A stretch of 24,005 nt of DNA from a virus, in IMG/VR virus record IMGVR_UViG_3300020467_000053, positions 1 to 24,005 of that record, one strand, 5' to 3'. The translations under genes were made by a program, and so were the position numbers. Under the pieces are notes generated by a model, which had not been told where the DNA came from, made no database searches, and saw only the letters and a list, made by a program, of their open reading frames with translations. Below are positions 57 through 24,005 of the stretch, in pieces (position 1 is the first letter of the stretch; the number at the start of each line of letters is the position of its first letter).

Positions 57-82
57 TTTAAAAAAATTTCCCAGTATTAAAA

Positions 83-298: not shown

Positions 299-301
299 GA
301 T

Positions 302-4028: not shown

Positions 4029-4030
4029 TT

Positions 4031-5556: not shown

Positions 5557-5558
5557 TT

Positions 5559-7115: not shown

Positions 7116-7515
7116 TGGGCAGGATTTAACAAAATCTCGTTCATTTACAGACATAGGTATGGCTTTTGGTAAAAATCCTTTTACTGATGATGTATCTGTT
7201 GTTAAAAATGATAATGCTATTAAGCAGTCCGTTAGGAATTTGATAATGACATCTCCTGGCGAAAAACCATTTCAACCTACTATAGGTTGTCAGGTATACG
7301 CTATGTTATTTGAACCTCTCGATGCTTTTAGTGTAGATGGTATCAAGACTGAGATAATAAATACCATTAATCAGCATGAGCGTAGAGTACGACTTAGAGA
7401 TGTTAATGTTGTCCCTTTTGGTGGCAATAATAAAGTATCAGTAACTATTACATATCAAGTTGTAGGTATACCTATAGTGGAAGAAGTTAAGTTTGTTTTA
7501 CAGAGACCTGGATAA
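7096..7515 (+). CDS. 25: baseplate wedge protein gp25, 139 aa
   Basis: gp25 is a conserved, lysozyme-fold-like wedge subunit of contractile tail baseplates (GPW/gp25 family, homologous to TssE). It binds the gp6-gp7 core bundle and starts sheath assembly. Family features seen are the N-terminal 'DIGMAFGKNPFTDD' strand-loop at 19-32, the helix NAIKQSVRNLIMTSPGEKPFQP at 40-61 with the typical 'R-N-L-hhh-T-x-x-G-E' signature, the 'G-C-x-h...LFEP' segment at 64-74, and the C-terminal beta strands. The usual E-P-R loop that contacts the core bundle reads ERR here (95-97). Length is close to T4 gp25 (132). Its stop overlaps the gp6 start by one base (TAATG at 7513-7517), matching the coupled gp25-gp6 order of T4-like phages. 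Confidence 0.95.
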   Translation: MALKPISGQDLTKSRSFTDIGMAFGKNPFTDDVSVVKNDNAIKQSVRNLIMTSPGEKPFQPTIGCQVYAMLFEPLDAFSVDGIKTEIINTINQHERRVRLRDVNVVPFGGNNKVSVTITYQVVGIPIVEEVKFVLQRPG

Positions 7516-9548
7516 TGCAACCAAATAACCTGACAGCATTAGATTTTGAGGATATTAAGGCATCCATTAAAACTTATTTGAGAACTAGAAACGAATTCTC
7601 AGATTATGATTTTGAAGGATCAGGATTATCCTATCTTATTGATACTTTAGCGTATAATACCTATTATACTGCTTTTAATGCAAATATGTCGATGAATGAG
7701 GCATTCCTTCCTTCTGCGACGTTAAGAGACAATATTGTCAATATTGCAAAGCTTTTAAATTATGTTCCAAGATCAATTACCTGTTCTAAGGCATGTTTGC
7801 ACTTAGAGGTTCAAACCTCAATGACAAATGGCACTTATCCTAGTAGTATAACGCTCTCTAAGGGGTCTGTAGCGAGTGGTGGTAACTTTATATGGAATAT
7901 TCTTTCCGACACTACTGTAGAGGTTAATACCACAACTGGTATTGCGATATTTGATAATTTGATGATTCATGAAGGTTCCATTATGGAATTTCAGTATACT
8001 GTTAATACTTTCCAAAATCAAACTTATAAAATACCTGCTGAAGATGCTGATATTAGTACTTTAGAGGTAACTGTTAAACCAAACGAAGCATCTACTACAT
8101 CCGACTTGTATAATGTTGTTGATACAGTAACTAATTTAACTGCTTCAACTAGGGTTTATTTCCTTTCTGAAGGAGAAGATCAGAGATATGAGATACGATT
8201 TGGTGATGATAGTGTTGGTAGAAAGCTTAAAGATGGTGAAATAATTAATTTGGAGTACTTAGTTACTTCTGGTACAGAAGCAAATGAAGTACAAAAGTTT
8301 ACTTTTATAGGTTCTCTTACTGATAGTCTTGGAATTAAACCTGCAAATGGAGATGTTACTTTAACAACAAAAGAAAAGTCACAACAGGGATCGAAAGCTG
8401 AGACTGTAGAGTCAATTAAGTATATGGCTCCTAGATACTATTCTTCTCAGTATAGAGCAGTTACAGCACAAGATTATGCTGTAATAACTAAAAAGATTTA
8501 CTCTAATGCAGATTCTGTTATTGCTTATGGTGGTGACTCATTGAATCCACCAATTTACGGTAAAGTCTATATTGCTATTAAAACTAAGACTGGTTCTTCT
8601 TTGAACGATGCAACTAAAAAGAATATTGCTGCAGATCTTAGAAGTTATGCAATGGCATCTATTGACCCAGTAGTTATTGACCCTGATCAGCTTTATGTCT
8701 ATCCTAAAGTATATGCTTTATATGATACTGGAGTAACTAGTAACACCTCTGCTATTAAGACAAATATACAGAATAGTGTTAATGATTGGGCAACTCAAAC
8801 TCAAATTAACAACTTTAACTCAACATTTAGAAATCAACAATTCCAAAAAGCAATTACTTTATCTGATAAGGCAATTACTGATGTTTCTGTACAGACATCA
8901 CTTTTAAAGTATATTAAACCTCAAACTAATCAAACTAATACTTATTGTATATCTACTGGTTCAGCACTATACAATAGTGCTCCAAGTAACGTTGATGGTT
9001 CTGATGCAACTGGTTGTAAGAAAGAACCAGTTATATTATCTGGTAATTTTAGAACAGCAGATAGACCTGGTATTGATCAACAATTTGAAGATGATGGATT
9101 TGGTAAGTTGAGAACATTTTATAACACTGGTAATAAGAAGGTTTATACCAATAATAATGCTGGTTCTATTAACTATGATACTGGTGATATATGTATTGGA
9201 CCTATTAATATTGTTGGTGCTGGTGATAATATACCATCATCTACAAATTTAAATCTATCTGATGCTGTTACTGGTGTAGGAAGTGTAATTGATGTCAGTC
9301 AACTTCCAACAGATTTATCATTACCAACGTTGTTTATACCTTCCAACAGTTCTACTATTCCAGCATCTACTCCTGGTACTATTATCAACTTGATTAATCC
9401 AGAAGTCACAGTAAACCCAACTGGTTCAACACCACCTCCTACTGTACCTCTAAATAGTTTGACACCAAAGGTCTTTAATCAAGCACCAACTCTAGTAGAA
9501 GTTGCTTCAATTAATAATACAGGTTCTCTCACTTCTAGTTGTTTCTAA
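7515..9548 (+). CDS. 6: baseplate wedge protein gp6, 677 aa
   Basis: gp6 forms the inner ring of wedges in T4-type baseplates and belongs to the baseplate J/gp6 family. The N-terminus has the characteristic start 'LDFEDIKASIKTYLRTRNEF', then an NMSMNEAFLPSATLRDNI stretch and 'AKLLNYVPRS' at about 78-87, typical of these wedge proteins. The middle includes the family-like 'RYYSSQYRAVTAQDYAVI' segment at about 305-325, where the core wedge domain starts. The length is close to T4 gp6 (660). The last 100 residues are rich in Pro, Ser, Thr and Asn (for example SSTIPASTPGTI) and may be a flexible extension. It follows gp25 by a one-base overlap and ends 5 bases before the giant gene at 9554. Confidence 0.93.
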   Translation: MQPNNLTALDFEDIKASIKTYLRTRNEFSDYDFEGSGLSYLIDTLAYNTYYTAFNANMSMNEAFLPSATLRDNIVNIAKLLNYVPRSITCSKACLHLEVQTSMTNGTYPSSITLSKGSVASGGNFIWNILSDTTVEVNTTTGIAIFDNLMIHEGSIMEFQYTVNTFQNQTYKIPAEDADISTLEVTVKPNEASTTSDLYNVVDTVTNLTASTRVYFLSEGEDQRYEIRFGDDSVGRKLKDGEIINLEYLVTSGTEANEVQKFTFIGSLTDSLGIKPANGDVTLTTKEKSQQGSKAETVESIKYMAPRYYSSQYRAVTAQDYAVITKKIYSNADSVIAYGGDSLNPPIYGKVYIAIKTKTGSSLNDATKKNIAADLRSYAMASIDPVVIDPDQLYVYPKVYALYDTGVTSNTSAIKTNIQNSVNDWATQTQINNFNSTFRNQQFQKAITLSDKAITDVSVQTSLLKYIKPQTNQTNTYCISTGSALYNSAPSNVDGSDATGCKKEPVILSGNFRTADRPGIDQQFEDDGFGKLRTFYNTGNKKVYTNNNAGSINYDTGDICIGPINIVGAGDNIPSSTNLNLSDAVTGVGSVIDVSQLPTDLSLPTLFIPSNSSTIPASTPGTIINLINPEVTVNPTGSTPPPTVPLNSLTPKVFNQAPTLVEVASINNTGSLTSSCF

Positions 9549-9553
9549 ATTAG

Positions 9554-9733
9554 ATGGCAAATATCAATAAAGTCTCCCAATCAGTAAGGTCGCAGACCCC
9601 AGCTTTCATAGAGGATGAGTATCCTCTGTTTAATAAATTCATTGAATATTATTACAGATCGCAAGAAAAGACTGGATTAGGGCAAAATATTTTAAATAAT
9701 TTCCTTCAATATTTAGATATTGATAAACTAGAT
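9554..9733 (+). other. N-terminal baseplate-linked segment of giant protein
   Basis: Residues 1-60 contain 'FIEDEYPLFNKFIEYYYRSQE' as a helix with aromatic-rich faces, followed by QNILNNFLQYLDIDKLD. This kind of helical start opens several large structural proteins of T4-like cyanophages and relatives, so it is probably the part that plugs into the virion. Identification is from memory of the pattern and is moderate only. Confidence 0.55.
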
Positions 9734-12700
9734 ATAGGAATTCTTGATGGTGCGACAAAAATTGTAGAACCTTTAAGTGCTATTGATGATACTATAGTTG
9801 TAGAGAGTGTAGACCCATTTTTAGAGAACGATGGATCTATTTTAGTTGGTGATGAAGTAATATACTATGAAAAGGTAACTCATGCTCCAAATATTGCATT
9901 AAGTCCAGGTGTTTCATACGAACAAGTTAAGTTAAAATGGTTGGGTCTTGCAAATCCATTAACATTATTTGATGGAACAACTCAGTCATTCCCTTTAACT
10001 TCTCAAAATAACCCAATTGCTCCACCTTCAGCACAACACTTAATTGTACAGGTTTATAATGAAGTTTTAATTCCTAATATTGATTACACTGTAGAGGGTA
10101 CTGATATTATCTTTACTGAAGCACCTAGAAAGAAATTAGATGCTGATGGTACTTCTACAACGTTTGTTACATATTTGAGTGGTTTTGTTGAGAGTAATAT
10201 TGAATTAATTGACAACATCTCCAATAGTTTTGGTGAAGGTAAGCGTCAATTTACTATGACAAAAGGTGGTAATTCTTACGAACCTGTTATAGATGAATAT
10301 GTTTTAGCGATATATGATAATAAACTACTTTTACCAAAAATAGATTACTTTATTGATGGTGATCAGTTTATTTTTAAAGATACTCCTTTAAACGGTAGAT
10401 TTTTATCTCTTTATTCTGTTGAAGCACCAATTCCATCTTTCGGTTCTGGTGCTATAGGGTATGCACGTCTAGATTCAGATGGTAAATTAACTGGTATTTC
10501 TACAAATACTAATGGATCTAATTATAGGTTTGAATATCCACCAAAGGTTTCTATTAACTCTCAAGGAATTGGTAGTGGTGCATCTGCTACAGCATTAGTT
10601 AATGGTATTAAGAGTGTTTCTCTTCTAGATGGTGGATATGGATATAGTGATACAAACCCACCTTTAGTAACTGTACAAGCACCTACAAAACCAGGTTCTA
10701 CAACAGCATCTATCAAAGCAACTGTTACTAATGGTGCGGTTAGTTCATTAGAAGTTCTTAATTCTGGTAATGGGTATACATTTACACCTAGACTTACTTT
10801 TACTCAGCCTGGAGGCGGTCAGATTGCCCCTCCAACCATGTCTAATGGTTCTATTAGTGGTAGTATAACTGTAACTAAAGGTGGTATTGGTTATACAACT
10901 GTACCTGACATTTATGTTGACCCTCCAACTGAGGAGAATGGTATTAAAGCAAGTTTACAAGCAGTTTTAACAGATGGTGTTATTACTTCTGTTAATATTT
11001 TAAATGCTGGTCAAGGATATGTTGGAACTCCTAGAGTTTCTGTTATAGACCCAACAGGAGCACAGATTCTTCAGACAAAGGTTGATGGTGATGGAAGAGT
11101 AACAGATATTGAGCTTTTAAGTGGTGGTAGTGGATATCAAGATGTTCCTTCTGTTTATATTGTTGATGAAAGAGTAGATCAAATTGGTAATTATGCAGGT
11201 GGTACTGGTGCTGAAGCAGTAGCAACAATATTCAACGGTCAGATTATTGATATTAATATAACCAATTTTGGTTCTGGATATAGTGCAACTGAACCTCCAA
11301 CAATCTTTATTCAAGCACCACCTTCTGCAGAAGCTTCTGGTACTATAGGATTAAATGAAGTTACTGGATTTACAGTAAATCAGAGTGGTAGTGGATATAG
11401 TAAAGCAAAATTTGAAGGATGTGCTAGAGCAGCAAGTGGTATTAAAGAATATTCTGAAGATGGTAATGCAGTATTCTCTAATGTTACTACAGCAGCAGAA
11501 GCGGCAGCAGACACTTCTGTTAAGTGTTTAGATGCTTTATTCGTCAAAAGATTGCTTGATAAGTATACAGAACAGTTTTTACCTGATGTACCTTCTCTAG
11601 ATTATTCTCAAATTGACGTTAGAACAGCAATTAAGACCATTAAGGACTTCTATGCGTCTAAAGGTACTTCCTATAGTATTGCTTATCTCTTTAAGTTATT
11701 ATACGGTGAAACAGTAAGTATTTCGTATCCAAAAGATCAGATAATTAAGCCTTCTTCTGCTACTTGGTCTATTGATACTATTCTTCGTGCAACTTTAGTT
11801 AGTGGTGATTCTCGTGATATAAAAGACGCTTTATTAATACAAGAGAGGGATATAGCAGATAGTAATGTTCAAGATGCAAGTGCTCTTGTTGAAAACTTTA
11901 TTTCAATTAAAACTTCAGAACAAACAATATATGAATTAGTTCTTTCAGAAGAGACTATTACAGGAACATTTACAGTTCCTTATAAGACAAAATTGGCAGA
12001 ACCTTTGAATGCCACTGATGGTATTATTACAGTTGACTCTACTATTGGTTGGCCAGAAAGAAATGGTGAATTTATGATTGGTACTGGGGCTGGTGCAGAA
12101 CTAGTTCAGTATAAAGAGAAGTCACTTAACCAGTTTATCGAATGTACTCGTTCTGTTAACCATGTAGTTGAAGATTGGGATTCTGCTACTGAAGTAGCAT
12201 CAAACTTTAGAGTTTATCTTAATAAAGGAACTAATCAAGAAGTTCAGATGAATATTGTTGGTATTGTTGATGCTCAACAAACAACATTAACAGATACAGG
12301 TTCTTATTACTTACCTGGAGATAAATTAACAGTTTCTAAGTTAGGTGGTACTGGTATTGGTCCAGATTTAACAACTTGGTTGTATAATGTTAAGAAATTG
12401 ATTGAAATTACATCTATCACTTATGGTGGTGTTAATAATCAATCAGCAACAGTAACTTGTGCTAATAATCATGGTCTATTAGTTGGAGATCAAGTTACCA
12501 TATATGGTGCTAATCCGATCATTTATAATGGAACTTTCTTAGTAACTTCTAGGGATAGTGACCTTATTTTCCAGTATAATTTACCTCAACCTGCTACTGT
12601 TGTACCACAAGGTAATATTCTAGTATCTGTTGACCTTAATAAAGGTAAATCTATTAACTCTGCTGTTAATAATGCTATTAGCCCATATACAACAAACATA

Positions 12701-15700
12701 CAGAACTCATTCTTTAACGATGATTATGTTTATGTTGCGTCTACTGGTATTCCAAACTATGAGATAGGTCCATTCCCTGGTTCTGCTTTACTTCCAGGTA
12801 ACCAACGTAAATTAAATAGGTTCCCTAAAGTACCTACTACAATTTCAACTAAGAATGCTATTTCTTCAGGTCCTATTGGTACTTGGGTTAATGGTGTATC
12901 AATTTGGTCTTATAAGTCAACTGAAGCAAAAACCTTTGGTGCTGTAACTGACGTTAGTATTATTAATGCTGGATCTGGATATGATGCTGCATCTCCTCCT
13001 GCAATTACTATGACAGGTGGTGGTGGAGAAGGTGCAACTGCAAGTGTTGTAGTTAATGGTTCTCTTAGTGAGATTACTGTAACTAATGGTGGTTCTGGAT
13101 ATACTTCATCTCCATTGGTATCAATCGTTGGAGGAGGCGGTTCTGGTGCTGCTGCTACTGCTATTATCACTAAAGGTGAAGTTTCACGTATTCTAATTAA
13201 AGCAGGTGGTTCTGGATATACATCACAACCAGCTATTACCATTGTTGGTGGAGAAGGTTCTGGTGCTGCTGGTACTGCATCTGTTCGTGGACCTATTCAA
13301 TCTATTGGTATTACCAATGGTGGTGTTGAATATACTTCAAGTCCAACAGTAATACTAAGTTCTGGTAAAGGTGCTGTTGCACAGGCAATTGTTAATGATG
13401 GTAGAATTATATCTATTGCTATCATTTCTGCTGGATCTGGATATACTACTGCACCTGAAGTAACTATTCAAGGAGATGGTTTTGGTGCAGTTGCAAGAGC
13501 AACTATTGATACTGATGGTGAGAATGCTGGAAGGGTAACTGGTATTGAGATTATTAACAGAGGTATTAACTACGTTCAAGGTACAACAGTTATTAATTTG
13601 ACTTCTGTTGGTCAAAATGCAACATTTACTGCTAATGTTTTCCAATGGAATTACAACCTTCAGGCAACTTCACAATTTGACTCTGCTAAAGGTTCTGTAT
13701 TTACTGGTTATAATAATGAGTATGGTGGTGAGTATGCTCACCTTTCAAATCCTCAAAAGATGAGGTATATTCTTGGTGATAACCTATATGAGCAAGTTGG
13801 TACAGGAAATATACTTGAGCAAGAAGAGCAGTTAGAACATTCTCCAATTATAGGTTGGGCATTTGATGGTAACCCAATTTATGGTCCTTATGGATATAAT
13901 GATCCTACTGACCAAGGTTCTTCTATTGTAAGACTTAAAACTTCTTATAAGTTAAAAGATGAATTAATTTATGATGATACAACTAATCCAAATCCAACTA
14001 GAACTGCTGGTCCATTATTAACAGAAGAACCTTCTGGTAATTTTGTAGAAGACTATGAGTATAGTTTTGGATTAGGTGACTTAGACCAGTATAATGGTCG
14101 TTTCTGTAAGACTCCTGACTTCCCTAATGGTGCTTATGCATATTTTGTTACTATTGATGCTACTGAATTAGGTTCTCCACTTTTTCCATATGTTATAGGA
14201 CCAAGTTTCAACTCTGTTGTTGATTCTTGGAATCTTAGTGCTGATGCTGTTCAGCAAAATATTCCTCAAGGTGTTGTTCGTTATAGAGATCCTTATGAGA
14301 ATGTTGACATTGATGTTGAAAGAGTTCCTAATGCTTCTACTGCTGCTTTAACAACTGAATCAGGTGAAATTTTACTTTTTGAAGTAGAGGATGAGAATAG
14401 AGATGGTGTTATAGGTCCAGAAGAAACTGCTGACCCTGATCAGATGTTTGAGGAATCACCTCTACAATTATTTGATTATTTCCCTAAAGTTAAATTTGAC
14501 TCTAAAGTTGATATTGAAGTTGAAACAACAACTAAATTTGAAGATGCTTCTGTTACTGGATTTACTGTTGAGAACCCAGGTAAAAACTATCAGGTAGATG
14601 ATCGTTTAGTATTTGATAATGCAGGTACTGATGGTACTGGTGTTTCTGCTCGTATTTCAAAAATTAAAGGGGAATCTGTAGCAGCATATTCATTTGAAAA
14701 TATTAGTGGATTGAATTATGGTGTCTTAAAAACTAATGACCCTCATAATTTAGTTGCTGGAGATACTGTATATGTGGATTATACTCCTGTAATGCAGAGT
14801 ACTAATAAGTCATTTACTGTTCGTCAATATAAAGGTATAGAAGAGATTGTAATTGATCAAAGAGGTTCTGGATATAATACAGATATTCCACCAACTATAA
14901 CAATTGATGGTAATGGTACTTCTGGTAAATTAGAAGCAGTAGTTAGTTCCGTAGGATCTATTGATACTGTTAATATTATAAATTCTGGTTCTGGTTACAC
15001 AAGAAATCCTCGTGTTATCCTATCTCACCCACAGATATTCAAAAAAGCAGATTATTATGTTTCTAAACTTGATAATAATAATTATGTTAAGATAAATGAT
15101 ACATTTATCAATGATAGTAAGGAAATCTTTATTTGTGGTAAAACAAAGGATACTATCGGAAATACTGTTGGATTTGTTTCAAAATTATCTGCTACAGGTG
15201 TTAAAGAGTGGGAGAATACTTTAGAAAGTACTGATGGTCAATATTATACAGAATTTAAAAAAATATATGTTGATGGTAATGATGTTTGGGTAGTTGGTAA
15301 TAATGAACCAAATTCCAATTTACTTAATGCATATAATCCAGATATTATACTTGTTAAGTATACTCAGGCAGAAAATGGATTGAGTGCTGGATTACAGTTC
15401 CAGAAAGGTTATGCTGGTATTTCTGGTTCTACTCGTGCTGATCATGTTTCATCAATTCAGAAATGGAGTGATACTCGTTATGTAATTGGTGGATATACTA
15501 ATACTAACTCTAGTAATCCATATGATGCGTTTATAGCATCTATTGACACCACTGGTAATTTTGCAATAAAGAGAAAGCTTGTTTCTACAAATAAATCTGA
15601 AAAGATTGTAGACATGAAGGTCATAACGACCACTGCTGGTGCTACAGAATTGTATTTCTTAATGGAAGTAGGACAAAATACTTCCACTACTGATATTAAT

Positions 15701-18700
15701 ATAGCATTTGGTAAAGCAACTCTAACTACAAGTGCAATTAATGTAGATTTCATCAAGGAATATAGTACAACTTTATATTCATTAATTGATGGTAATCTTG
15801 TATTTGATGAATTTAATGAGTGTTATATTACTTGTACATTAAGACTTAAGTCCGATGCTACAACTAGAGATAGTTTCTGGGTTGGTAAAACTGATACAAC
15901 TGGAGAATTACTTTGGAATTATCGTTATGTTGCTCCTGGTAGAGACATTAACTTAGCTCAAAAGAGCTCTGTTGATATATTTGGAGATTTGAATGTAGCA
16001 TTTACTAGAGACAATACTACAAGTGGTGTTAGAACTGTAGATTCAGTTAAGATTGGATATAATGGTATTGTTAAAAATCATACAACTAATGAATTTAATC
16101 AGAAACGTATAGAGGGTATTACTGTTCATGCTGTTAATACTGATAATTCTGGCGATGTTTATATAAATGGACAAACTCAATGGAATAGAAATGAGTTTAT
16201 CTTCGATTTTGCTGCTAATGAGCAAACAGATGTAACAGGGCATTATACTTTAACTTCCGTTGGAGCAAGTAATGCAGTAACTTATGCCGATAATATGGCA
16301 AAAATTTATGGTTACCAGCCTGCTGGATCTAGTTCTACATGGGAAAATTCTTACCTTAAAGTTGCTGGAACTGATTTGGGTACAGTATTAGCAGATGATT
16401 GGACTTTAGAGTTCTTTGTATACAAATCTGCATCACAATCTCAGACTTTATCTCAAACTGTTCAAACTTTAGTAGGTATTGGTGGTGCTAGAGATGCTAC
16501 TGGTGGACTATGGTTAGGGTATGATAATTCCTCTGGTGAGTTGCAAATGGTTATTACCAATCAAACAACTCAGTTAATTAATGGTTCAGGTCAATCATCT
16601 TCTCAGACAACAATGTATGCTGATAATAGTTGGCAAACTATTGCTGTAAGGAAGGAAGGTAATGTATTTAAGGCATTTGTTAATGGTATAGAAGTAATTA
16701 GTGGAACATTATCAAATACTGCCTTTGGTAATAAAGATCTTTATTTTGGTAACCAGATTGGTTTTGGTACTCTTGCCACAGATTTCAATAAAGATTATCA
16801 AGGTCAATTCTTTATCGACAACATTAGATTGAGAAATAGAGCAGTTTCTATTACTGTACCTTCTGATATATCAAGTTTACCACCTGTAGCTTCATTTGCG
16901 TTTGCATACGATTGGACAGATGACGTATGGTTTACTAATAATTTAACCAGGTATGACTATATTGATCATAATGGTTGGGGTTTAAAGGTAGATAAAAATG
17001 CTGATGCTACTAGATTAGGTGATAAAGGATTACAAACAAATACTCAATTTGGATTTGTTAGAACCTCAGTAACTCCTGTTACAGGAAGTACTTTAACAAT
17101 GGGTGAAGCAGACTTTGCTTTAGGTGATGCTGGTCTACAAAATTTAGACTTTGATGATGCTACTATAACAATGACACCTGGTACAGAATCATTAACTTAC
17201 ACTAATGATATCTGGAGTTCTAGAACAGCAACTGTACCTTCTCCAGGTTCAAAGAAATTGCAAGTATCTGCTGTAGTTAAAGATAGGTACTTCTTTAAAG
17301 TTACTAATACAGTTAAGATTGATAATATTCAAGAGTTATCTATAAATCAACCATTTGCATTTACTGTAGGATCTAAGTTAAAGCTTGGTAATCTTGCTTC
17401 TGGTACATTTATCAATAGTGGTTATATTATTAAAACAGATGTACCAAATAGAAAGATCTATATTGCTGTTCAAAATAATACTTGGACTGATGATTTAAAC
17501 ACTGGTATATTAACTACTGAGCAGTTTAATGAAGCAGATACTTATGGAATAGTTGGTCCTATTCCAAATGATGTAAATGAGATGCCATATACATTTGCAC
17601 AGGTTAATAACACAACTCCTGGAACATTTGACATTGATATGTCCACTTATGATGCTCCTGCTGAGATTGGTGGTACTAATAACTTAGATGACTTTGCTAG
17701 GTTCAAGTCTTTCAATCCCGATGATTATTCTATTAGAATTGATGAAGTTTCTGGTGCATCTCCATTTATTGTCGGGTCTGTTGTTTCTATTACTGGTGAT
17801 GATATATCATTCAACTCAGACTATAATACATGTCAGATAATAAACTTAACTGCTGTTACTAAGATTACTTTAATATCGAATTTAGAGAGAATACTTCAAG
17901 TAACTGCTGTTGGTAATAGTGATGAAGTTTATGTAATTACAGGAACAAGTCATTATTTAACTCCTGGCGAGATCATTTATGTTGATGGTAATCCATCACA
18001 ATCATCTGGTGGTCTTGTTTATGACGAATATGATGGTGCATTTGCTGTTGATACTGTAGTAAGTCCACTTGAATTTACATATAAGTTACCACAAACTGCT
18101 GTAACAGAACCAGCAACCTCTGCTTCTAATGTTAGCATTTTTGTTAAGTCTCCTACTTTAAAGATGTATTATGGACACCAGTATATCTTTGATTTAAGTC
18201 ACTCTTCATTGGTAGGTGGTAACTTATCCTTCGCTAAGGATAATCTTTATAAGTTGGAATATTCTTTCAACTCTATTGAAAGAATTGGTACTCCTGGTGT
18301 AACTGGACAAGGAACAGTAACTCCATCAGTTAAACTGAAAGTTGATAATAATGTAGTTACTAATATTTCTTATTACTTTGATCCTTCTAGAACTGGTAGT
18401 GATTCTCCTGTAATATCTGATAGTTATCTTGATGTAACTGATTCTCCTTATACTGGTATATTCACAATTAGTTCTACATCTGGTCAAACTATTACTCGTG
18501 GTGCTGATACTTTCAAATTCCCATTATTAAATGAACCAGAAGGTGATGGTGATATAGTACAAACAACATATACTACAAGTTCTCTTAAAGCAGTTGGTTC
18601 TATTGGTGATATTCGGATCATTAATCCAGGTGGTTTTTATACTAAGTTACCTATTGTTACTGGTATTGATTCAACAAGAAAGATTGAAAGAGTGCAAATT

Positions 18701-21700
18701 ATTGAACCAGGAACTGAATATGCTGTAGGAACTTATAATGGTGTACCTATTGCTGGTGATGGAGAAGGTGGATTTGTTCAAATCACTGTTCAAGATGGAA
18801 CTGATGATGAAGGTATAACCATTCCAGGTCAGATTCAAGAAGTTCTTGTTACATCTCCAGGTAAGGGATATACTACTGCAACAATTGATGTTGAAGGTAT
18901 AGAAGGTATCCTTGGTTCTGGATTAGCTGGTTCTGGTGCAGATTTATCAGTTGTTATTCCACCTTTCGGTACTGAAGCATCTATCTTTACTAAGGGTGAT
19001 AAGGTTGGTAAGATTAAGAAACTTAAGAATAATAACTTTGGTTATGATTATCCTCATGACTATACTCTACGTCCTGAAATTACATTCCCATTAAATGCAC
19101 AGTTAACTTCTACAAGTATACTTGAGAGTATTACTGTTACTAATCCAGGTTCTGGATATTCATTAGCACCTACTGTTGTAATTACAGGTGGTGGTGGAAG
19201 TGGTGCTACTGCAGAAGCAAGTATTAAGAATGGTCGCTTAGATCAGATTGAAGTTAAAGACCCAGGTGCTGGTTATTCTTCTACACCTACTGTAAGTCTT
19301 AGGTCTGCATTTAACTATGTTGTAAACCTTGACTTGGGATTATTACAATTTGCTTATCCTCATGGTATTACTAATGGTGCTGAAGTTAGTGTTGCTGTAA
19401 CTGATACTGGAGATGGTGCTGATTATCCATTATCTGCTGGTGCAACAGGTCGTCTTAATCCAAATACTACTTATTATGCTATTGCTGGTTCTGCAAATTC
19501 ACTTGAAGATGATCAGTTAAAAATTGCTATTACTGCTCAAAACGCAGAACTTGGTGATGCACTATCATTTGTTAACGCTGGTGAAGGTCGTCAGAGTATT
19601 TTAACCGAATCATTCGGTGGTGCTGCTACTGCTAATGTTATCACATCTACCTTCCTTGAAGGCGAACTTGTATATCAAGGTGATTCCTTAGAGCAAGCAA
19701 CTGCACAAGGATATGTTTCAACTAACTCTGGTTGGCAAATTGGACCTAGAGTTCTTAAGATTGTTGATTATACTGGTGTATTTGCAGAAGGTGAACAATT
19801 AACTGGTGTTATTTCTAAGTCTTCTGGTACTATTGGAGATCTTAAATTTGCTCGTGGTGTTCTAGATATTGGTTCTATTACTAAAACTACGGGACAATTC
19901 ATTGATGATGTTGGTAAGCCATCTGAAATCATTCAGAAGATTCAAGACTCTTACTACTATCAAGACTTCTCTTATGCTGTTAAGTCTGCTGTTTCTATCA
20001 GTGAGTGGAAAGAAATTCTAATTAGAAACGTTCACCCTGCATCATTTAAAGTCTTCGGTGAGTTGAATTTAAATGAGTATGGTGAGATTCCTAATAAGGA
20101 TACATTCTTTGAACTTACTAAGTCTGTTGAGTTGGCACAGGAAGCAGTTGTTCCTAATATTCAGAACTTTGCTTTAGTTGAACCAATATACACAGAATTT
20201 AATAATACAGAAGTACTATTCAGACAGAAGAGATTAACATCTTCTGAGAATATTCTAACTTCTGTTGTACAAAGAGTTGATGATATTTCTAATCAATTTG
20301 ATGGTGTTAAAACTTCATTCCCATTAACAGTTAATGGTGGTACTGTTGTTGCTAACTCCAATCAGTTAATGATCGTTTTAAATGGAGTTGTACAGAATCC
20401 AGAAACAGCATTTACAATTCAACAGGATTCTATAGTTTTTGTTGAACCACCTAAACCACCTGCAAGTGTTAAGTATGCAAATGTTACTATTGCAACTAAG
20501 CAAGGATATGAATTAACATTCTCTAATACTAGTGGTATTTTCCCTCTTCTTGGAAATATAGTTAATGGTACTTCTTCTAATGCAAAATTCACTGTATTAA
20601 AAGTAGTTGGTAACACTATTACTGGTTATTATAGTGATACTCCAGAATTCATATTAAATGAATTATGTAATGTTGCTGCAACAGGATTCTCTGGTACTTT
20701 AGATACTATAACTCCAATTGCTAATCTTGGATTGTTTACTTTTGGTGAAAATATAACAAACTTAGAAGGTAATCTTGCAAAGATTGAGCAAGTTAACTTG
20801 CAAACAGGTCAAGAGATGCCTATTGCTAAGTTGAGATACTCAATTGGTCCATCTACAACTACATTTGAAGTTATAGATCCAAATTCCGAGACACCTCAAC
20901 CAGTTGCAAACAATACGTTTGAACCAGAAGCAAACTATCAATTAGGTTCTGAAATATTTACTTTAGTGAGTTCTGTTGATAATGCAGATTCTACCAGTAT
21001 TACTGTTACAAGAAATTCTCTTGGCACAACAGCAGTAAACCAATCTGATGATTCTCCAATATACACTACTAAGATTGAGGTAACAAATAATCTAACATTA
21101 AGTAAGACTGCAGGTACATACACATCTTCTCCTGGATTATTTGATATTCAATTGAATGATATCATCTATGGAGCACAGTCTGGAGTTATTGCACAAATTA
21201 CTTCAACATCTGCTTATCAAGATCCTGTAACTCAAGAGTTTATTGGACAGGTTGATATTTCTCCTGGTTCTTCATTCTTTGGTTTATTATTCAATAGAAT
21301 TACATCTACATCTTATCCAAACGTTGTTTTGGATAATATTTCTGAATCTGTTGTAAGTATTGTTGATTATACTGATAATATAACTGGATATAATAGTAAC
21401 TTCCCTTCTAACGAGCAGATTAATAATTATATTGTACCATTTAATAATTTAAGTGGTACAATGCAACTCAATGAAATGATCCGTAATTATAAGATTGATT
21501 ATGGTAATAATACTAATGAGTTTGTAACTGGTGAAAATGGTATCGTTAGAAAGATGGCGTTCTACGATAGAGAAGGTACTGGATTCTTTGGGTCTGGTCA
21601 AATAATCAGATCTCGTGATACTAAGGCTGAAGTTATTGGTTATAACCAAGCACGTAATATTGTTTATCTTGGTAAGATCGGTAGAACTAAATCAAATGGT

Positions 21701-24005
21701 GAAGATTATTTTGATTTCAATTTTGAAGGTAATGCACAAATTGATACAGCACAAAAGAAATTTGGTGCTGCTTCATTACAAATGGCGGCTGGAACAACAG
21801 ATTTCATTTATACTGGAGTTAGTGATGAGATTGCTTTTGGTACAGGTGACTTTACTGTTGAATTATATGTTCGTGCTGCTTCTTCATCTTTAACTGGAAC
21901 AGTAGATATTCTTGATACAAGACTTGGTAATGCAACAGAACTTTCATTTAGATTGTATCTAGAAACAGGTCAAGTTCGTTGGCATGTTAATGGTAACAAT
22001 CTAGTTACTTCTGGTGGAACTACTGTTGCTGCTGATACTTGGACACACCTTGCTTATACAAGAACTGGTACAACTGGAAAACTTTATATTGATGGAGTTG
22101 AAGTTGGAACAGGTACTGATGGTACAAATTATACCGCTAAACCACTCTTTATCGGAGTTGGATATCAATATTCAACTGGATATATTGGACATATTGATGA
22201 ACTAAGAATTTCTAACAGTCTTAGATATTCTGCTGCATTTACACCGTTAGCTGGTATTTTCCAAGGAGATATTGATACAAAACTATTACTTCATTTTGAT
22301 GGTGCTGATGGACAGCAATATGTAGAAGATTGGTCTGGTACTGAATCATTTACAAAATCAGAATACTTTAATAATGATGCTATCCCAGCTACAATTCGTT
22401 ATGTTGGAAAGCATTTATTTGTAACTGGTACTTCAAATGCTGCTCTTACATTTAATGATGGTACTATAAAGGATGTTACTGATGCAACTTATGATGCAGA
22501 AACTGGTGTATTGGTATTAACTATTGGTTCACATAGTTATACAACAAGTAATCAACTTATTATTGGTGCTGAGAAGTTACCATTTACTTGTGAAAAAGAT
22601 AGTCATGCAACAGAGCATAGATATCCACGTACAACAGACCCTGCATATAATAAAGCTTTAGATATTACTGCAGTAACTGGTACAACAGTTACAGTTAATG
22701 TTGGTAGAGCAGTTCAAAGAGGATTTGTTGGAAATACGAATAGGTATTACAATGCTGCTACATTAATAGAATCTAACTTAGATTTCATTGCTAAAGAGGC
22801 AGTATATCTACTTGAGCAGAAATTCCCAGAATTTACTGTTATTAATGGTAGTGTAAATTGTCAAGATGATGTTAAGGATATTTGTAAGGCTGTTGCATAT
22901 GATATACGCAATGGTAGTAACTCTAAGATTTGGGATGCAGCATCTTACTATGTTGATAGGACAGATGTTAATAACGTTCAATTACTCAACGTTGAAAAGG
23001 AAGTTGTAGAAACTGTTTGGACGTATGGTAAATTAAAGCAGATATTAGATTATATCATAACAAATGATGTTTGGGATGTACAAGGTGATCATGGATTAAC
23101 ACAAACATATGATACTAGTATTACAGAGTCTAGCGGTTCTGCTGCTACTAAGTTAACTCCTGCTGGAGCTGTATATAATGCTTCTACTGGTGATTTACAA
23201 TTAACCATTGCTTCACATGGATTGTTTAGTAATACATCAATATCAATAAGTGGTGGAGCATATGATCCTGTCAGTGGATATCTTAGATGTGTTACTAGCA
23301 GTGCTCATGGACTTTCTTCTACAGATAAACTACAACTAGCAGATGAATCTTTAACATTCACTTGTACTATGGACCAGAATAGGTCTGAACATAAGTATCC
23401 AAGATCTTCTGATGAGGCAAGTCAAGGTTGGTTAGATGTTTTTATAGTTAACTCAACAACTTTTGATGTATTTGTTGGTAAAACACCAGATGTAATCTTT
23501 AATCCAACTGCTGCAACTTATAGTGGTTCAACAGGTCTTCTTAAGATGACTATTGGTGAGCATAGATTAAAAGCAGGTACAAATCTTAAGGTTGCTAAAG
23601 GTAGTCTTCCATTCAAGTGTACTATGGATGGATTACAATCAACTAAGTACTATCCAAGAGAGACCGACTTTATTTACAATGATAGTGTTCCTATTTTATA
23701 TGAAGGAACAGCATTTACATGTAATGGAGCATCTTATACACCATCAACAGGTTTATTAACAGTTACTGTATTCAATCATGGATTCTCTCATGGTGATAAG
23801 GTTCGTATTGTTGACGAATCAATTACATTTGAGTGTTTATTGGATAATAATATAACTCAACATAGATATCCACGTTCTACTGACCCAGCTAGCGGTAGAC
23901 AATTTAAGATTACTAATGTAACTACATCTACATTTGATGTAAATGTTGGTATATCTACTGACCTTTCATTACATACATTTAAGTCTGCAGATCCTAATGG
24001 TATTA
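9554..24005 (+). CDS. giant modular virion protein, partial (4,817 codons, C-terminus beyond window)
   Basis: One frame is open from ATG 9554 to the right edge. I checked the frame at 12,899, 14,999, 16,910, 20,039 and 23,999, and all fall in the same phase. The N-terminus (1-60) starts MANINKVSQSVRSQTPAFIE and contains EYPLFNKFIEYYYRSQE, a type of start I know from large cyanophage and related phage structural proteins, probably baseplate-linked. Further on are GSGY arrays (310-622, 1129-1363, 1666-1824, 3016-3251), a 'YASKGTSYSIAYLFKLLYG' segment (about 700-718), a YHYH-like domain (about 1430-1553), a probable propeller (about 1851-2226), LamG-like domains (about 2276-2433 and 4053-4231) and a C-terminal YPR repeat array. 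It is unlike T4 gp7 at the N-terminus. Codons end mostly in A or T and Gly, Ser, Thr and Asn dominate. Function is probably adsorption or baseplate periphery; the stop and total length are not seen. Confidence 0.9.
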   Translation, partial: MANINKVSQSVRSQTPAFIEDEYPLFNKFIEYYYRSQEKTGLGQNILNNFLQYLDIDKLDIGILDGATKIVEPLSAIDDTIVVESVDPFLENDGSILVGDEVIYYEKVTHAPNIALSPGVSYEQVKLKWLGLANPLTLFDGTTQSFPLTSQNNPIAPPSAQHLIVQVYNEVLIPNIDYTVEGTDIIFTEAPRKKLDADGTSTTFVTYLSGFVESNIELIDNISNSFGEGKRQFTMTKGGNSYEPVIDEYVLAIYDNKLLLPKIDYFIDGDQFIFKDTPLNGRFLSLYSVEAPIPSFGSGAIGYARLDSDGKLTGISTNTNGSNYRFEYPPKVSINSQGIGSGASATALVNGIKSVSLLDGGYGYSDTNPPLVTVQAPTKPGSTTASIKATVTNGAVSSLEVLNSGNGYTFTPRLTFTQPGGGQIAPPTMSNGSISGSITVTKGGIGYTTVPDIYVDPPTEENGIKASLQAVLTDGVITSVNILNAGQGYVGTPRVSVIDPTGAQILQTKVDGDGRVTDIELLSGGSGYQDVPSVYIVDERVDQIGNYAGGTGAEAVATIFNGQIIDINITNFGSGYSATEPPTIFIQAPPSAEASGTIGLNEVTGFTVNQSGSGYSKAKFEGCARAASGIKEYSEDGNAVFSNVTTAAEAAADTSVKCLDALFVKRLLDKYTEQFLPDVPSLDYSQIDVRTAIKTIKDFYASKGTSYSIAYLFKLLYGETVSISYPKDQIIKPSSATWSIDTILRATLVSGDSRDIKDALLIQERDIADSNVQDASALVENFISIKTSEQTIYELVLSEETITGTFTVPYKTKLAEPLNATDGIITVDSTIGWPERNGEFMIGTGAGAELVQYKEKSLNQFIECTRSVNHVVEDWDSATEVASNFRVYLNKGTNQEVQMNIVGIVDAQQTTLTDTGSYYLPGDKLTVSKLGGTGIGPDLTTWLYNVKKLIEITSITYGGVNNQSATVTCANNHGLLVGDQVTIYGANPIIYNGTFLVTSRDSDLIFQYNLPQPATVVPQGNILVSVDLNKGKSINSAVNNAISPYTTNIQNSFFNDDYVYVASTGIPNYEIGPFPGSALLPGNQRKLNRFPKVPTTISTKNAISSGPIGTWVNGVSIWSYKSTEAKTFGAVTDVSIINAGSGYDAASPPAITMTGGGGEGATASVVVNGSLSEITVTNGGSGYTSSPLVSIVGGGGSGAAATAIITKGEVSRILIKAGGSGYTSQPAITIVGGEGSGAAGTASVRGPIQSIGITNGGVEYTSSPTVILSSGKGAVAQAIVNDGRIISIAIISAGSGYTTAPEVTIQGDGFGAVARATIDTDGENAGRVTGIEIINRGINYVQGTTVINLTSVGQNATFTANVFQWNYNLQATSQFDSAKGSVFTGYNNEYGGEYAHLSNPQKMRYILGDNLYEQVGTGNILEQEEQLEHSPIIGWAFDGNPIYGPYGYNDPTDQGSSIVRLKTSYKLKDELIYDDTTNPNPTRTAGPLLTEEPSGNFVEDYEYSFGLGDLDQYNGRFCKTPDFPNGAYAYFVTIDATELGSPLFPYVIGPSFNSVVDSWNLSADAVQQNIPQGVVRYRDPYENVDIDVERVPNASTAALTTESGEILLFEVEDENRDGVIGPEETADPDQMFEESPLQLFDYFPKVKFDSKVDIEVETTTKFEDASVTGFTVENPGKNYQVDDRLVFDNAGTDGTGVSARISKIKGESVAAYSFENISGLNYGVLKTNDPHNLVAGDTVYVDYTPVMQSTNKSFTVRQYKGIEEIVIDQRGSGYNTDIPPTITIDGNGTSGKLEAVVSSVGSIDTVNIINSGSGYTRNPRVILSHPQIFKKADYYVSKLDNNNYVKINDTFINDSKEIFICGKTKDTIGNTVGFVSKLSATGVKEWENTLESTDGQYYTEFKKIYVDGNDVWVVGNNEPNSNLLNAYNPDIILVKYTQAENGLSAGLQFQKGYAGISGSTRADHVSSIQKWSDTRYVIGGYTNTNSSNPYDAFIASIDTTGNFAIKRKLVSTNKSEKIVDMKVITTTAGATELYFLMEVGQNTSTTDINIAFGKATLTTSAINVDFIKEYSTTLYSLIDGNLVFDEFNECYITCTLRLKSDATTRDSFWVGKTDTTGELLWNYRYVAPGRDINLAQKSSVDIFGDLNVAFTRDNTTSGVRTVDSVKIGYNGIVKNHTTNEFNQKRIEGITVHAVNTDNSGDVYINGQTQWNRNEFIFDFAANEQTDVTGHYTLTSVGASNAVTYADNMAKIYGYQPAGSSSTWENSYLKVAGTDLGTVLADDWTLEFFVYKSASQSQTLSQTVQTLVGIGGARDATGGLWLGYDNSSGELQMVITNQTTQLINGSGQSSSQTTMYADNSWQTIAVRKEGNVFKAFVNGIEVISGTLSNTAFGNKDLYFGNQIGFGTLATDFNKDYQGQFFIDNIRLRNRAVSITVPSDISSLPPVASFAFAYDWTDDVWFTNNLTRYDYIDHNGWGLKVDKNADATRLGDKGLQTNTQFGFVRTSVTPVTGSTLTMGEADFALGDAGLQNLDFDDATITMTPGTESLTYTNDIWSSRTATVPSPGSKKLQVSAVVKDRYFFKVTNTVKIDNIQELSINQPFAFTVGSKLKLGNLASGTFINSGYIIKTDVPNRKIYIAVQNNTWTDDLNTGILTTEQFNEADTYGIVGPIPNDVNEMPYTFAQVNNTTPGTFDIDMSTYDAPAEIGGTNNLDDFARFKSFNPDDYSIRIDEVSGASPFIVGSVVSITGDDISFNSDYNTCQIINLTAVTKITLISNLERILQVTAVGNSDEVYVITGTSHYLTPGEIIYVDGNPSQSSGGLVYDEYDGAFAVDTVVSPLEFTYKLPQTAVTEPATSASNVSIFVKSPTLKMYYGHQYIFDLSHSSLVGGNLSFAKDNLYKLEYSFNSIERIGTPGVTGQGTVTPSVKLKVDNNVVTNISYYFDPSRTGSDSPVISDSYLDVTDSPYTGIFTISSTSGQTITRGADTFKFPLLNEPEGDGDIVQTTYTTSSLKAVGSIGDIRIINPGGFYTKLPIVTGIDSTRKIERVQIIEPGTEYAVGTYNGVPIAGDGEGGFVQITVQDGTDDEGITIPGQIQEVLVTSPGKGYTTATIDVEGIEGILGSGLAGSGADLSVVIPPFGTEASIFTKGDKVGKIKKLKNNNFGYDYPHDYTLRPEITFPLNAQLTSTSILESITVTNPGSGYSLAPTVVITGGGGSGATAEASIKNGRLDQIEVKDPGAGYSSTPTVSLRSAFNYVVNLDLGLLQFAYPHGITNGAEVSVAVTDTGDGADYPLSAGATGRLNPNTTYYAIAGSANSLEDDQLKIAITAQNAELGDALSFVNAGEGRQSILTESFGGAATANVITSTFLEGELVYQGDSLEQATAQGYVSTNSGWQIGPRVLKIVDYTGVFAEGEQLTGVISKSSGTIGDLKFARGVLDIGSITKTTGQFIDDVGKPSEIIQKIQDSYYYQDFSYAVKSAVSISEWKEILIRNVHPASFKVFGELNLNEYGEIPNKDTFFELTKSVELAQEAVVPNIQNFALVEPIYTEFNNTEVLFRQKRLTSSENILTSVVQRVDDISNQFDGVKTSFPLTVNGGTVVANSNQLMIVLNGVVQNPETAFTIQQDSIVFVEPPKPPASVKYANVTIATKQGYELTFSNTSGIFPLLGNIVNGTSSNAKFTVLKVVGNTITGYYSDTPEFILNELCNVAATGFSGTLDTITPIANLGLFTFGENITNLEGNLAKIEQVNLQTGQEMPIAKLRYSIGPSTTTFEVIDPNSETPQPVANNTFEPEANYQLGSEIFTLVSSVDNADSTSITVTRNSLGTTAVNQSDDSPIYTTKIEVTNNLTLSKTAGTYTSSPGLFDIQLNDIIYGAQSGVIAQITSTSAYQDPVTQEFIGQVDISPGSSFFGLLFNRITSTSYPNVVLDNISESVVSIVDYTDNITGYNSNFPSNEQINNYIVPFNNLSGTMQLNEMIRNYKIDYGNNTNEFVTGENGIVRKMAFYDREGTGFFGSGQIIRSRDTKAEVIGYNQARNIVYLGKIGRTKSNGEDYFDFNFEGNAQIDTAQKKFGAASLQMAAGTTDFIYTGVSDEIAFGTGDFTVELYVRAASSSLTGTVDILDTRLGNATELSFRLYLETGQVRWHVNGNNLVTSGGTTVAADTWTHLAYTRTGTTGKLYIDGVEVGTGTDGTNYTAKPLFIGVGYQYSTGYIGHIDELRISNSLRYSAAFTPLAGIFQGDIDTKLLLHFDGADGQQYVEDWSGTESFTKSEYFNNDAIPATIRYVGKHLFVTGTSNAALTFNDGTIKDVTDATYDAETGVLVLTIGSHSYTTSNQLIIGAEKLPFTCEKDSHATEHRYPRTTDPAYNKALDITAVTGTTVTVNVGRAVQRGFVGNTNRYYNAATLIESNLDFIAKEAVYLLEQKFPEFTVINGSVNCQDDVKDICKAVAYDIRNGSNSKIWDAASYYVDRTDVNNVQLLNVEKEVVETVWTYGKLKQILDYIITNDVWDVQGDHGLTQTYDTSITESSGSAATKLTPAGAVYNASTGDLQLTIASHGLFSNTSISISGGAYDPVSGYLRCVTSSAHGLSSTDKLQLADESLTFTCTMDQNRSEHKYPRSSDEASQGWLDVFIVNSTTFDVFVGKTPDVIFNPTAATYSGSTGLLKMTIGEHRLKAGTNLKVAKGSLPFKCTMDGLQSTKYYPRETDFIYNDSVPILYEGTAFTCNGASYTPSTGLLTVTVFNHGFSHGDKVRIVDESITFECLLDNNITQHRYPRSTDPASGRQFKITNVTTSTFDVNVGISTDLSLHTFKSADPNGI
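9943..10400 (+). repeat. two copies of a 'NxV..P..DY' beta module
   Basis: Residues about 131-193 and 209-283 share the plan: 'F-x-G...x-F-x-h-T', then 'VYNEVLIPNIDYTVEG' (first) or 'IYDNKLLLPKIDYFIDG' (second), then 'IIFTEAP' or 'FIFKDTP'. A third copy occurs far downstream at about 20,270-20,450 ('VLNGVVQNPETAFTI', 'SIVFVEPP'). The two early copies are adjacent, which suggests tandem duplication followed by movement of a copy. Confidence 0.7.
10481..11420 (+). repeat. GSGY beta-repeat array 1 (about 8 copies)
   Basis: Each unit of about 35-45 residues reads roughly 'hxhxxGGSGYxxxPxhxhxxP...A.a.hxxG.h'. Anchors seen are LLDGGYGYSD, VLNSGNGYTF, VTKGGIGYTT, ILNAGQGYVG, LLSGGSGYQD, ITNFGSGYSA and VNQSGSGYSK, plus a weaker first unit. 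This is coding DNA, so the repeat is at protein level rather than a DNA direct repeat. A beta-solenoid or chain of small beta modules is likely. Confidence 0.85.
11612..11770 (+). other. conserved 'YASKGTSYSIAYLFKLLYG' segment of giant protein
   Basis: Residues about 687-739 contain IKTIKDFYASKGTSYSIAYL, then 'FKLLYGETVSISYPKDQII' and 'PSSATW'. A helix ending in 'G-T/S', followed by an aromatic-rich 'hhhhhG..hxhxYPxDxhhxxS...W', recurs in large phage structural proteins of the cyanophage/T4 type. I use it as support that this protein belongs to that family and is baseplate-associated. Confidence 0.6.
12451..12600 (+). repeat. 'HGL..GD.V' module, copy 1
   Basis: Residues about 967-1016 show 'NNHGLLVGDQVTIYGA' then 'YNGTFLVTSRDSDLIFQYNLPQ'. 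A related copy at about 17,930-18,090 reads 'TSHYLTPGEIIYVDG' then 'YDGAFAVDTVVSPLEFTYKLPQ'. A looser one at about 14,735-14,835 reads 'PHNLVAGDTVYVDY'. Such modules are common in long phage fiber-like proteins. Confidence 0.65.
12940..13640 (+). repeat. GSGY beta-repeat array 2 (about 6 copies)
   Basis: This is the most regular array. Anchors are IINAGSGYDA, VTNGGSGYTS, IKAGGSGYTS, ITNGGVEYTS, IISAGSGYTT and IINRGINYVQ, each followed by Pro, a beta strand (AITM, LVSI, AITI, TVIL, EVTI) and a Gly-Ala-rich turn. The DNA here repeats 'ggttctggatat' nearly verbatim and could recombine in culture or misassemble. Confidence 0.85.
13841..14210 (+). other. YHYH-like domain of giant protein
   Basis: Residues about 1430-1553 show 'GWAFDGNPIYGPYGY', then 'LGDLDQYNGRFCKTPDFPNG', then 'AYAYFVT' and 'FPYVIG'. 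This order (h-x-x-DG-x-P-I-YG, D-x-x-N-G, P-x-G-x-Y-x-Y, FPYhhG) matches the YHYH family of secreted bacterial proteins. The final 'YHYH' is AYAYF here. The biochemical role of YHYH domains is not well established; the identification is by pattern. Confidence 0.65.
14550..15025 (+). repeat. GSGY beta-repeat array 3 (3 copies)
   Basis: Anchors are VENPGKNYQV, IDQRGSGYNT and IINSGSGYTR. The first is separated from the other two by a 'HNLVAGDTVYVDY' type module, so arrays and modules are interleaved rather than grouped. Confidence 0.75.
15105..16230 (+). other. probable beta-propeller region of giant protein
   Basis: Residues about 1851-2226 contain repeated blades of the type 'hhhxGxT...hhxKhs.tG...W...h': IFICGKTKDTIG with 'SKLSATGVKEWENTL', 'DVWVVGNN' with 'ILVKYTQAENG', 'RYVIGGYTNTNS' with 'FIASIDTTGNFAIKRKL', 'LYFLMEVG', 'YITCTLRLKS' with 'VGKTDTTGELLWNYRYV', and 'VYINGQTQWNRNE'. 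This is the look of SBBP/delta-60-type propeller repeats. About five to six blades can be counted; fold not verified. Confidence 0.6.
16380..16850 (+). other. LamG/concanavalin-like domain 1 of giant protein
   Basis: Residues about 2276-2433 run 'DDWTLEFFVYKSAS', 'GGLWLGYDNSSGELQMV', 'DNSWQTIAVRKEGNVFKAFV', 'NGIEV', 'LYFGNQIGF' and 'FFIDNIRLRNRAV'. This matches the 'fTlE.wvy...W..haVvR.g....hyvNG....IDelRis' plan of jelly-roll LamG/concanavalin A-like domains. These often bind sugars, so host surface binding is plausible, but no ligand can be read from sequence. Confidence 0.8.
17930..18090 (+). repeat. 'HGL..GD.V' module, copy 2
   Basis: Residues about 2793-2846 read 'TSHYLTPGEIIYVDG', then 'GGLVYDEYDGAFAVDTVVS' and 'FTYKLPQTAV'. 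The plan and spacing match the module at 12,451-12,600. Confidence 0.6.
18600..19305 (+). repeat. GSGY beta-repeat array 4 (5-6 copies, diverged)
   Basis: Anchors are IINPGGFYTK, IIEPGTEYAV, VTSPGKGYTT, KNNNFGYDYP, VTNPGSGYSL and VKDPGAGYSS. These copies use Pro before Gly (PG) where arrays 1 and 2 mostly use GG or SG, so array 4 forms its own subfamily. Confidence 0.75.
19925..20075 (+). other. 'DSYYYQDFSYAV' segment of giant protein
   Basis: Residues about 3458-3508 read 'IIQKIQDSYYYQDFSYAVKS', 'ISEWKEILIRNVHPASFKVFGEL'. I know this pattern as a recurring element of large T4-like phage structural proteins, where it often sits far from the N-terminus. It is not repeated elsewhere in the window. 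Confidence 0.55.
20270..20450 (+). repeat. third 'NGVVQNP' beta module
   Basis: Residues about 3573-3633 show 'FDGVKTSFPLTVNGG', 'MIVLNGVVQNPETAFTI' and 'SIVFVEPPKPP'. It is the distant copy of the two adjacent modules at 9,943-10,400. Confidence 0.65.
21710..22245 (+). other. LamG/concanavalin-like domain 2 of giant protein
   Basis: Residues about 4053-4231 run 'FNFEGNAQIDTAQKKFGAAS', 'GTGDFTVELYVRAAS', 'WTHLAYTRTGTTGKLYIDGV' and 'YIGHIDELRISNSLRYSAAF'. It is closer to the classic plan than domain 1, with the full 'W-T-H-h-A-h-x-R...hyhDG' and 'h-G-x-I-D-E-h-R-h-S' signatures. A 'LLLHFDGADG' start motif of a further LamG unit follows at about 22,280, but the rest of that unit is not seen. 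Confidence 0.85.
22490..22710 (+). repeat. C/HxYPR repeat, copy 1
   Basis: Residues about 4313-4386 show 'YDAETGVLVLTIGSHSYTTS', 'KLPFTCEKDSHATEHRYPRT' and 'TTVTVNVG'. It is the first of four units with the plan 'Y.-x-x-TG-x-L-h-h-T...H', 'F-x-C-x-h-D...H/Y-x-YPR', 'h-V-x-V-G'. Confidence 0.8.
22730..23080 (+). other. helical module of giant protein between YPR repeats
   Basis: Residues about 4393-4509 are clearly helical, unlike the beta-rich surroundings. They include 'YYNAATLIESNLDFIAKEAV', 'VNCQDDVKDICKAVAYDIRN' and 'SKIWDAASYYVDRTD', then 'KLKQILDYIITNDVW'. I recall the 'A..LI..N..FIA.EA...C..DV..h...hAYDhR.G.N' plan from other giant phage structural proteins; it has no known function. 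It sits as an insert between copy 1 and the other YPR repeats. Confidence 0.6.
23168..23960 (+). repeat. C/HxYPR repeat array, copies 2-5 (first is a half copy)
   Basis: A half unit 'YNASTGDLQLTIASHGLFSN' is at about 23,168-23,265. Full units follow with 'FTCTMDQNRSEHKYPR' (about 23,260-23,485), 'FKCTMDGLQSTKYYPR' (about 23,518-23,690, shortened end) and 'FECLLDNNITQHRYPR' (about 23,735-23,960). The conserved Cys, Asp, Tyr, Pro and Arg in each copy suggest structural constraint. The array may continue past the right edge. Confidence 0.8.

Follow-up and report, generated by a model that had tools for sequence, protein, structure and literature searches.

A giant open frame directly after gp6 in a T4-like cyanomyovirus contig very probably encodes gp7 with its core split by inserts

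The window analysed here is an entire virus record of 24,005 bp (IMG/VR record IMGVR_UViG_3300020467_000053); coordinates below refer to its plus strand. Upstream of a giant open frame, and on the same strand, lie genes for a wedge subunit (phrog_719), a PAAR protein, 2OG-Fe(II) oxygenases, a heme oxygenase, the sheath initiator gp25 (7096..7515) and gp6 (7515..9548), the last two recognised by profile matches. The giant gene (9554..24005) follows directly after gp25 and gp6, the position where T4 has gp7, as had been pointed out in the first-pass annotation of this DNA. The window's gp6, the expected partner in a (gp6)2-gp7 core bundle, carries a Gp6-like helical domain; its match to PHROG 219 covers residues 1–578 of 677, the last 99 residues (9249–9548) being beyond the match. 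The oxygenase and heme oxygenase block, flanked by PAAR and gp25, is embedded in the baseplate cluster, with the heme oxygenase gene (5559–6284; PF01126, E = 2e-71) placed between two 2OG-Fe(II) oxygenase genes within 4177–6925, the first of which gave repeated oxygenase matches.

The window is the baseplate region of a T4-like cyanomyovirus (Kyanoviridae type). A tblastn search with residues 1–282 of the giant protein produced matches in 357 of 50,697 phage records, all but one of them named Synechococcus, cyanophage or Prochlorococcus phage. With residues 616–1082 and a looser limit, the number of matching records was 506, and these included pf16, Cr30, and Stenotrophomonas and Pelagibacter phages at low identity.

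The giant frame starts with ATG at 9554 and stays open to 24004, with 0 stops in 4,817 codons, while the remaining five frames contain 233–725 stops each over the same stretch; given the base composition of this stretch, the chance of a stop-free run of this length is ~10^-164. The frame takes up 14,452 of the 24,005 bases, and its visible portion encodes 519 kDa of protein, which bears out the earlier description of a single frame of at least 4,817 codons that fills 60% of the window, is open to the right edge and exceeds 500 kDa before its end is seen. The record ends at 24,005 bp, and the stop codon (3′ end of the gene) therefore lies outside the data. Residues 1–4817 align with residues 1–4817 of a relative, G005, at 89% identity. 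Compensating indels spoil a gapless codon comparison, and dN/dS was instead calculated from aligned codons: for this one relative it was 0.19 overall and 0.12–0.28 in every one of eight 600-codon blocks (the first 4,800 codons), which points to purifying selection along the length of the gene. The frame at 9554–24004 was thus confirmed as real. That it could be an artefact of assembly or frame might be suspected in an IMG/VR virus contig, the more so as the frame of a near relative, G001 (loci L065 and L290), is broken at codon 4658; we give this practically no weight in view of the dN/dS value and of the intact genes in complete relatives and isolates described below. The window itself is open at codon 4658. 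In G001 the second piece is in another frame, and the two pieces abut when aligned on intact G005; this break may be a sequencing error or a real split.

By sequence, the giant protein is a member of the known PHROG 701 family of virion structural proteins, the model of which it follows collinearly (positions 2 to 4272 of 6136 at residues 3 to ~4286). Isolate orthologues also come after gp25 and gp6, and have lengths of 6,180 aa in S-SM1 (SSM1_102), 6,171 aa in S-SSM5, 6,198 aa in S-ShM2, 6,603 aa in S-TIM4 (ORF_101), 7,124 aa in P-SSM7 and 7,312 aa in P-SSM3 and P-SSM4; identity of the giant to the S-SM1, S-SSM5, S-TIM4 and P-SSM7 proteins is 68–72% over ~4,100 residues. The gene is already named gp7 in the records of P-SSM4, S-RIM8, P-HM2 and S-SM2, and other records label it merely as a virion structural or hypothetical protein. 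Virion mass spectrometry, proposed in the first-pass annotation as a check, exists for the S-SM1 orthologue rather than for the window's own virus: its cluster, T4-GC969, is one of 41 proteins for which multiple peptides from purified S-SM1 virions are listed in the part of Sullivan et al. (2010, PMC3037559) available to us. PHROG 701 and three further profiles with matches in the giant or in relatives (PHROG 19630, 18802 and 4406) carry the category ‘head and packaging’, although by gene order and homology the giant belongs to the baseplate.

Seven of 80 IMG/VR relatives were followed for full length. Five were complete, with 8,114, 8,115, 8,209, 8,210 and 8,394 codons, while the G006 gene and the second piece of the broken G001 gene run off their contigs. 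The complete G005 protein has a mass of 874 kDa, and since the visible residues align with it end to end, the full giant probably has ~8,100 aa and ~870 kDa. An earlier remark that it is among the largest phage proteins is plausible with relatives of this size.

Comparison of profiles shows that this gene retains the core of gp7 as three separate segments. Segment A is an N-terminal helical segment (residues 6–59; 9569..9730) corresponding to T4 gp7 ~641–692, segment B comprises helices with a KGT motif (residues 662–735; 11537..11758) corresponding to T4 gp7 ~724–760, and segment D contains a YYQDFSY...HPA motif (residues 3454–3511; 19913..20086) corresponding to T4 gp7 ~864–902. When aligned by hhalign to a T4 gp7 family of seven Straboviridae gp7 sequences, A, B and D matched in the same order with E values of 8.1e-5, 5.2e-13 and 5.4e-6, respectively. 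Their scores (32.0, 81.3 and 39.9) exceeded the maxima obtained with eight decoys, consisting of seven other T4 tail and fibre proteins plus the reversed gp7 family (14.1, 14.8 and 16.9), and those of 20 column shuffles (18.7, 17.0 and 19.2). A profile of the B region alone (nine sequences; residues 616–840) searched against 177,635 PDB sequences found T4 gp7 at E = 8.1e-7 and a Klebsiella phage gp7 at 2.4e-6, with the next match at 0.23. A profile of the short gp7-like family (32 sequences) matched T4 gp7 601–1032 at E = 3.7e-11, over T4 residues 645–829. The stretch behind B (residues 739–816; 11768..12001) is a putative counterpart of T4 gp7 domain V, with a weak structural match (Z 3.8–3.9).

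The Pfam family PF23786 (Baseplate_wedge, 284 positions) was likewise matched as three pieces in order. Positions 174–221 at residues 683–730 scored 33.1 bits, above the cut-off of 27, with positions 5–53 at residues 4–51 (19.3 bits) and positions 235–280 at residues 3462–3503 (16.2 bits, E = 0.0076) both below it; the family was also found above cut-off in the same-slot proteins of pf16 (523 aa) and HTVC008M (1,016 aa). The predicted model of the pf16 protein, gp212, had gp7 as its top three matches among 350,542 PDB chains (E = 1.6e-4 to 3.4e-4; 5hx2_A is named gp7, and the other two were taken as gp7 from entry and length), the next chain being at 0.13; the model is of low confidence (mean pLDDT 58) and its TM score to the best gp7 chain is 0.14. 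A model of window residues 1–840 predicted the insert between A and B well and the core poorly (pLDDT of 25–73 in blocks of A and B); the PDB chain that it matched best was a gp7, but without significance (E = 0.021, probability 0.08).

Less sensitive searches found little. The D profile alone ranked gp7 second in PDB at 0.13, behind an unrelated maturase at 0.01, and gave 0.09 in a second single-profile search against T4 gp7; segment A was not found in T4 gp7 by HMMER. The assignments of A and D to T4 gp7 therefore rest on the profile–profile test. The window protein had no match to T4 gp7 in plain BLAST, phmmer with residues 616–1082 against PDB returned gp7 as the sole match at E = 0.14, and neither phrog_964, the T4-type gp7 subfamily, nor the Pfam families Gp7_helical, Gp7_5th and Gp7_6th (window protein in five pieces, E 0.05) matched the giant, which on these searches would fall outside the T4-type subfamily of gp7.

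Taken together, we consider it very probable that the giant frame represents gp7 in a T4-like cyanophage, with the core kept as A, B and D in order. The first-pass annotation had asked whether the protein replaces gp7, and as a substitution this does not hold: the protein itself contains the gp7 core in three collinear pieces, and each of the 13 genomes searched had a single match to the KGT profile, located in this gene. A related proposal comes from a 2020 study of pelagimyophages, in the accessible part of which T4 gp7 is described as absent from pelagi- and cyanomyophages and seemingly replaced by VrlC (PMC7029224). Under such non-homologous replacement VrlC would have taken over the job of a lost gp7, and the giant would be an unrelated fibre or structural gene in its slot. 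The empty BLAST comparison with T4 gp7 agrees with this proposal, and the ordered profile matches of A, B and D and the gp7 chains at the top of the fold search with the short pf16 protein speak against it. Moreover, in relatives gp8 comes next after the giant gene or a few genes on, in some of them with an unnumbered wedge gene there, and VrlC is annotated as an additional gene adjoining gp8 or this wedge gene. We thus rate replacement as very improbable, and the gp7 core in the gene after gp6 contradicts the absence of gp7 as stated in that study.

The order of segments was surveyed across relatives. Among 90 distinct complete ORFs holding B, 87 contained A, B and D, none of them out of order, while two were without A and two without D (three ORFs altogether); the survey is biased, as loci L204–L283 were picked by patterns within A and D, ten profile seeds and fetched isolates are counted among the ORFs, near-identical copies are counted apart, and 180 incomplete B-holding ORFs were left out, long genes being cut by the fetched flanks. 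The 87 ORFs span 432–7,312 codons of open frame (measured from stop to stop), with gaps of −1 to 608 between A and B and of 95 to 2,809 between B and D, and tails of 9 to 3,714 after D. In the giant, A and B are separated by ~600 residues and B and D by ~2,700, and the core is spread over 3,500 residues. The A–B gap was 595–609 in 76 of 80 giant-type IMG/VR loci (four not scored) and 101–103 in all 80 S-SM2-type loci, so the insert between A and B looks like one gain or loss. The alignments consisted of 31 of 41 eligible loci plus pf16 for the short family (A5), and of all 76 giant-type loci, 37 of 80 S-SM2-type loci and the window for the other (A6).

With T4 gp7 (PDB 5hx2, 5iv5) the giant shares the slot, the A-B-D order, the profile match and perhaps domain V. 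However, in T4 the three segments lie within ~260 residues, and the ~640 residues that precede A have no counterpart in the giant. A gp7-like frame of 2,022 codons at another locus (L216, ORF from 867) has ~1,370 codons before segment A; this N-terminal extension had no PHROG match at 1e-5, and T4 gp7 has an N-terminal extension too. The short gp7-like proteins of pf16 (523 aa), Mendera (503 aa), Cr30 (767 aa) and HTVC008M (1,016 aa) are encoded after gp6, as in the giant, and carry A, B and D in order with few or no inserts; unlike in the giant, A touches B in the pf16, Mendera and Cr30 proteins. The part of PMC5587285 available to us does not settle gp7 of pf16. In S-CREM2, ORF122 (~1,937 aa by coordinates; compared by description) occupies the same place in the gene order and is labelled ‘baseplate wedge protein, intermediate’; virions yielded 91 unique peptides of it, according to the portion of PMC10665884 at hand; the label agrees with the gp7 reading of the slot. 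The protein family, its presence in virions and the name gp7 in some records were already known, and what is added here is the split core, the rule of repeats, the likely length and the conflict with the published absence of gp7. No description of a gp7 split in this way was found among the open PMC papers matched.

Insert 1, between A and B (residues ~66–620; 9749..11413), consists mostly of well-predicted beta structure with GSGY-type repeats and is largely missing from S-SM2-type relatives. Two beta domains within it (residues 124–292; 9923..10429; best Z there 8.1, borderline) resemble domains of phage tailspikes and baseplates; the model of the insert matched the CBA120 tailspike at Z 8.1 and the JBD30 baseplate at Z 8.9, which we read as resemblance alone because the tool regards values close to these as common. 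In the insert that separates B from D there are GSGY-type repeats, a YHYH domain (residues 1357–1537; 13622..14164) and a laminin-G-like domain (residues 2265–2432; 16346..16849), and a second laminin-G-like domain lies behind D (residues 4090–4223; 21821..22222), these three being recognised by domain matches. There are also matches to tail-fibre PHROGs in the C-terminal part. At the right edge an array of repeats begins that varies in copy number, four units of which are seen (residues 4309–4808; 22478..23977).

The units of this array are ~100 residues long (86-position model). In the five complete relatives 20–23 units are followed by a conserved C-terminal block of 1,265–1,285 residues, and these proteins share their end blocks with the PHROG 701 isolate proteins. 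Across ten giants, length equals 5,990 + 104 × number of repeats, with an r2 of 0.992 that is descriptive, as the ten proteins include several close pairs; S-ShM2 (6,198 aa, no unit found), outside the ten, fits the intercept loosely. Length differences among the giants thus follow repeat copy number between conserved ends. If near 8,100 aa, the giant would be 800–1,900 residues longer than the isolate proteins, with ~20 units versus 2–12, of which the window shows the first four.

In T4 and in phage XM1, gp7 or its homologue forms the wedge core bundle with two gp6-type chains, with six wedges per baseplate, as stated in the part of PMC10457771 accessible to us; XM1 gp17, the gp7 homologue there, has 242 aa, and its loop and tail hold receptor-binding spikes, which are separate proteins. 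By analogy with these structures, the three segments of the giant may come together again in the fold and form the wedge core with two gp6 chains, with one giant gp7 copy per wedge and six per baseplate. If A, B and D do assemble with gp6 in this way, the inserts would have to protrude as loops from the edge of the baseplate, and the C-terminal part would lie outside the core. Alternatively, a single chain could be produced and then cleaved to give a number of virion proteins. Hints of this might be seen in S-ShM2, where a neighbouring gene of 573 aa also encodes a YHYH-like unit by itself, and in the broken frame of G001; we find it improbable, since the core segments, far apart along the chain, would still have to stay together. 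The S-SM1 orthologue was found in virions, as cited above.

The inserts and the C-terminal part may act in host-surface recognition, much like a fibre or spike that is part of the wedge itself, with the reach of the C-terminal block set by the repeat array, a role that we hold to be about evenly poised. It competes with a structural skirt or second baseplate layer that makes no contact with the host, a serious contender a little short of even chances. Such a skirt would fit with the conservation of the C-terminal block (57–66% identity to S-SM1 in nine other giants), with low dN/dS in all blocks, with the 84% identity to G005 that is kept even in the repeat array, and with the fact that no receptor is known; the laminin-G-like and YHYH domains and the tail-fibre PHROG matches argue against it. 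So does the profile of identity to five isolates, which is 52–89% per 150-residue bin up to residue 4,050 and 70–88% in the bins holding core segments, and falls to 31–58% at residues 4,201–4,800, where repeats make the alignment unsure; S-ShM2 is lower. Between near-equal contenders, host contact appears the likelier.

A further and more tentative suggestion, which we think rather unlikely as a whole, is that gp7 carries its own receptor-binding arms, six chains of ~870 kDa, with the array of 2–23 units as an adjustable stalk to the end block. Host reach would then evolve within a core component of the baseplate, through changes in the number of repeats. In the accessible part of PMC6224464, S-TIM4 mutants in baseplate and fibre genes are reported, ORF_101 not being specified among them.

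Placing gp7 in cyanophages would fill a gap and tell where to look for it in a cryo-EM map. It would also mean that a core machine part can vary from <500 to >8,000 residues, growing at fixed points while its core keeps its order, and it identifies a repeat array, the copy number of which tracks how the giants differ in length.

Some existing gp7 labels fall on other genes. In S-ShM2 and P-HM2 the genes at L093:21940–23661 and L085:28551–34001 (the latter cut by the locus end) are both annotated as gp7, and each genome has one KGT match, in the gene after gp6 and not in this ‘gp7’-labelled gene. The one in S-ShM2 is similar to the YHYH portion of the giant, and these labels may therefore have come via shared modules.
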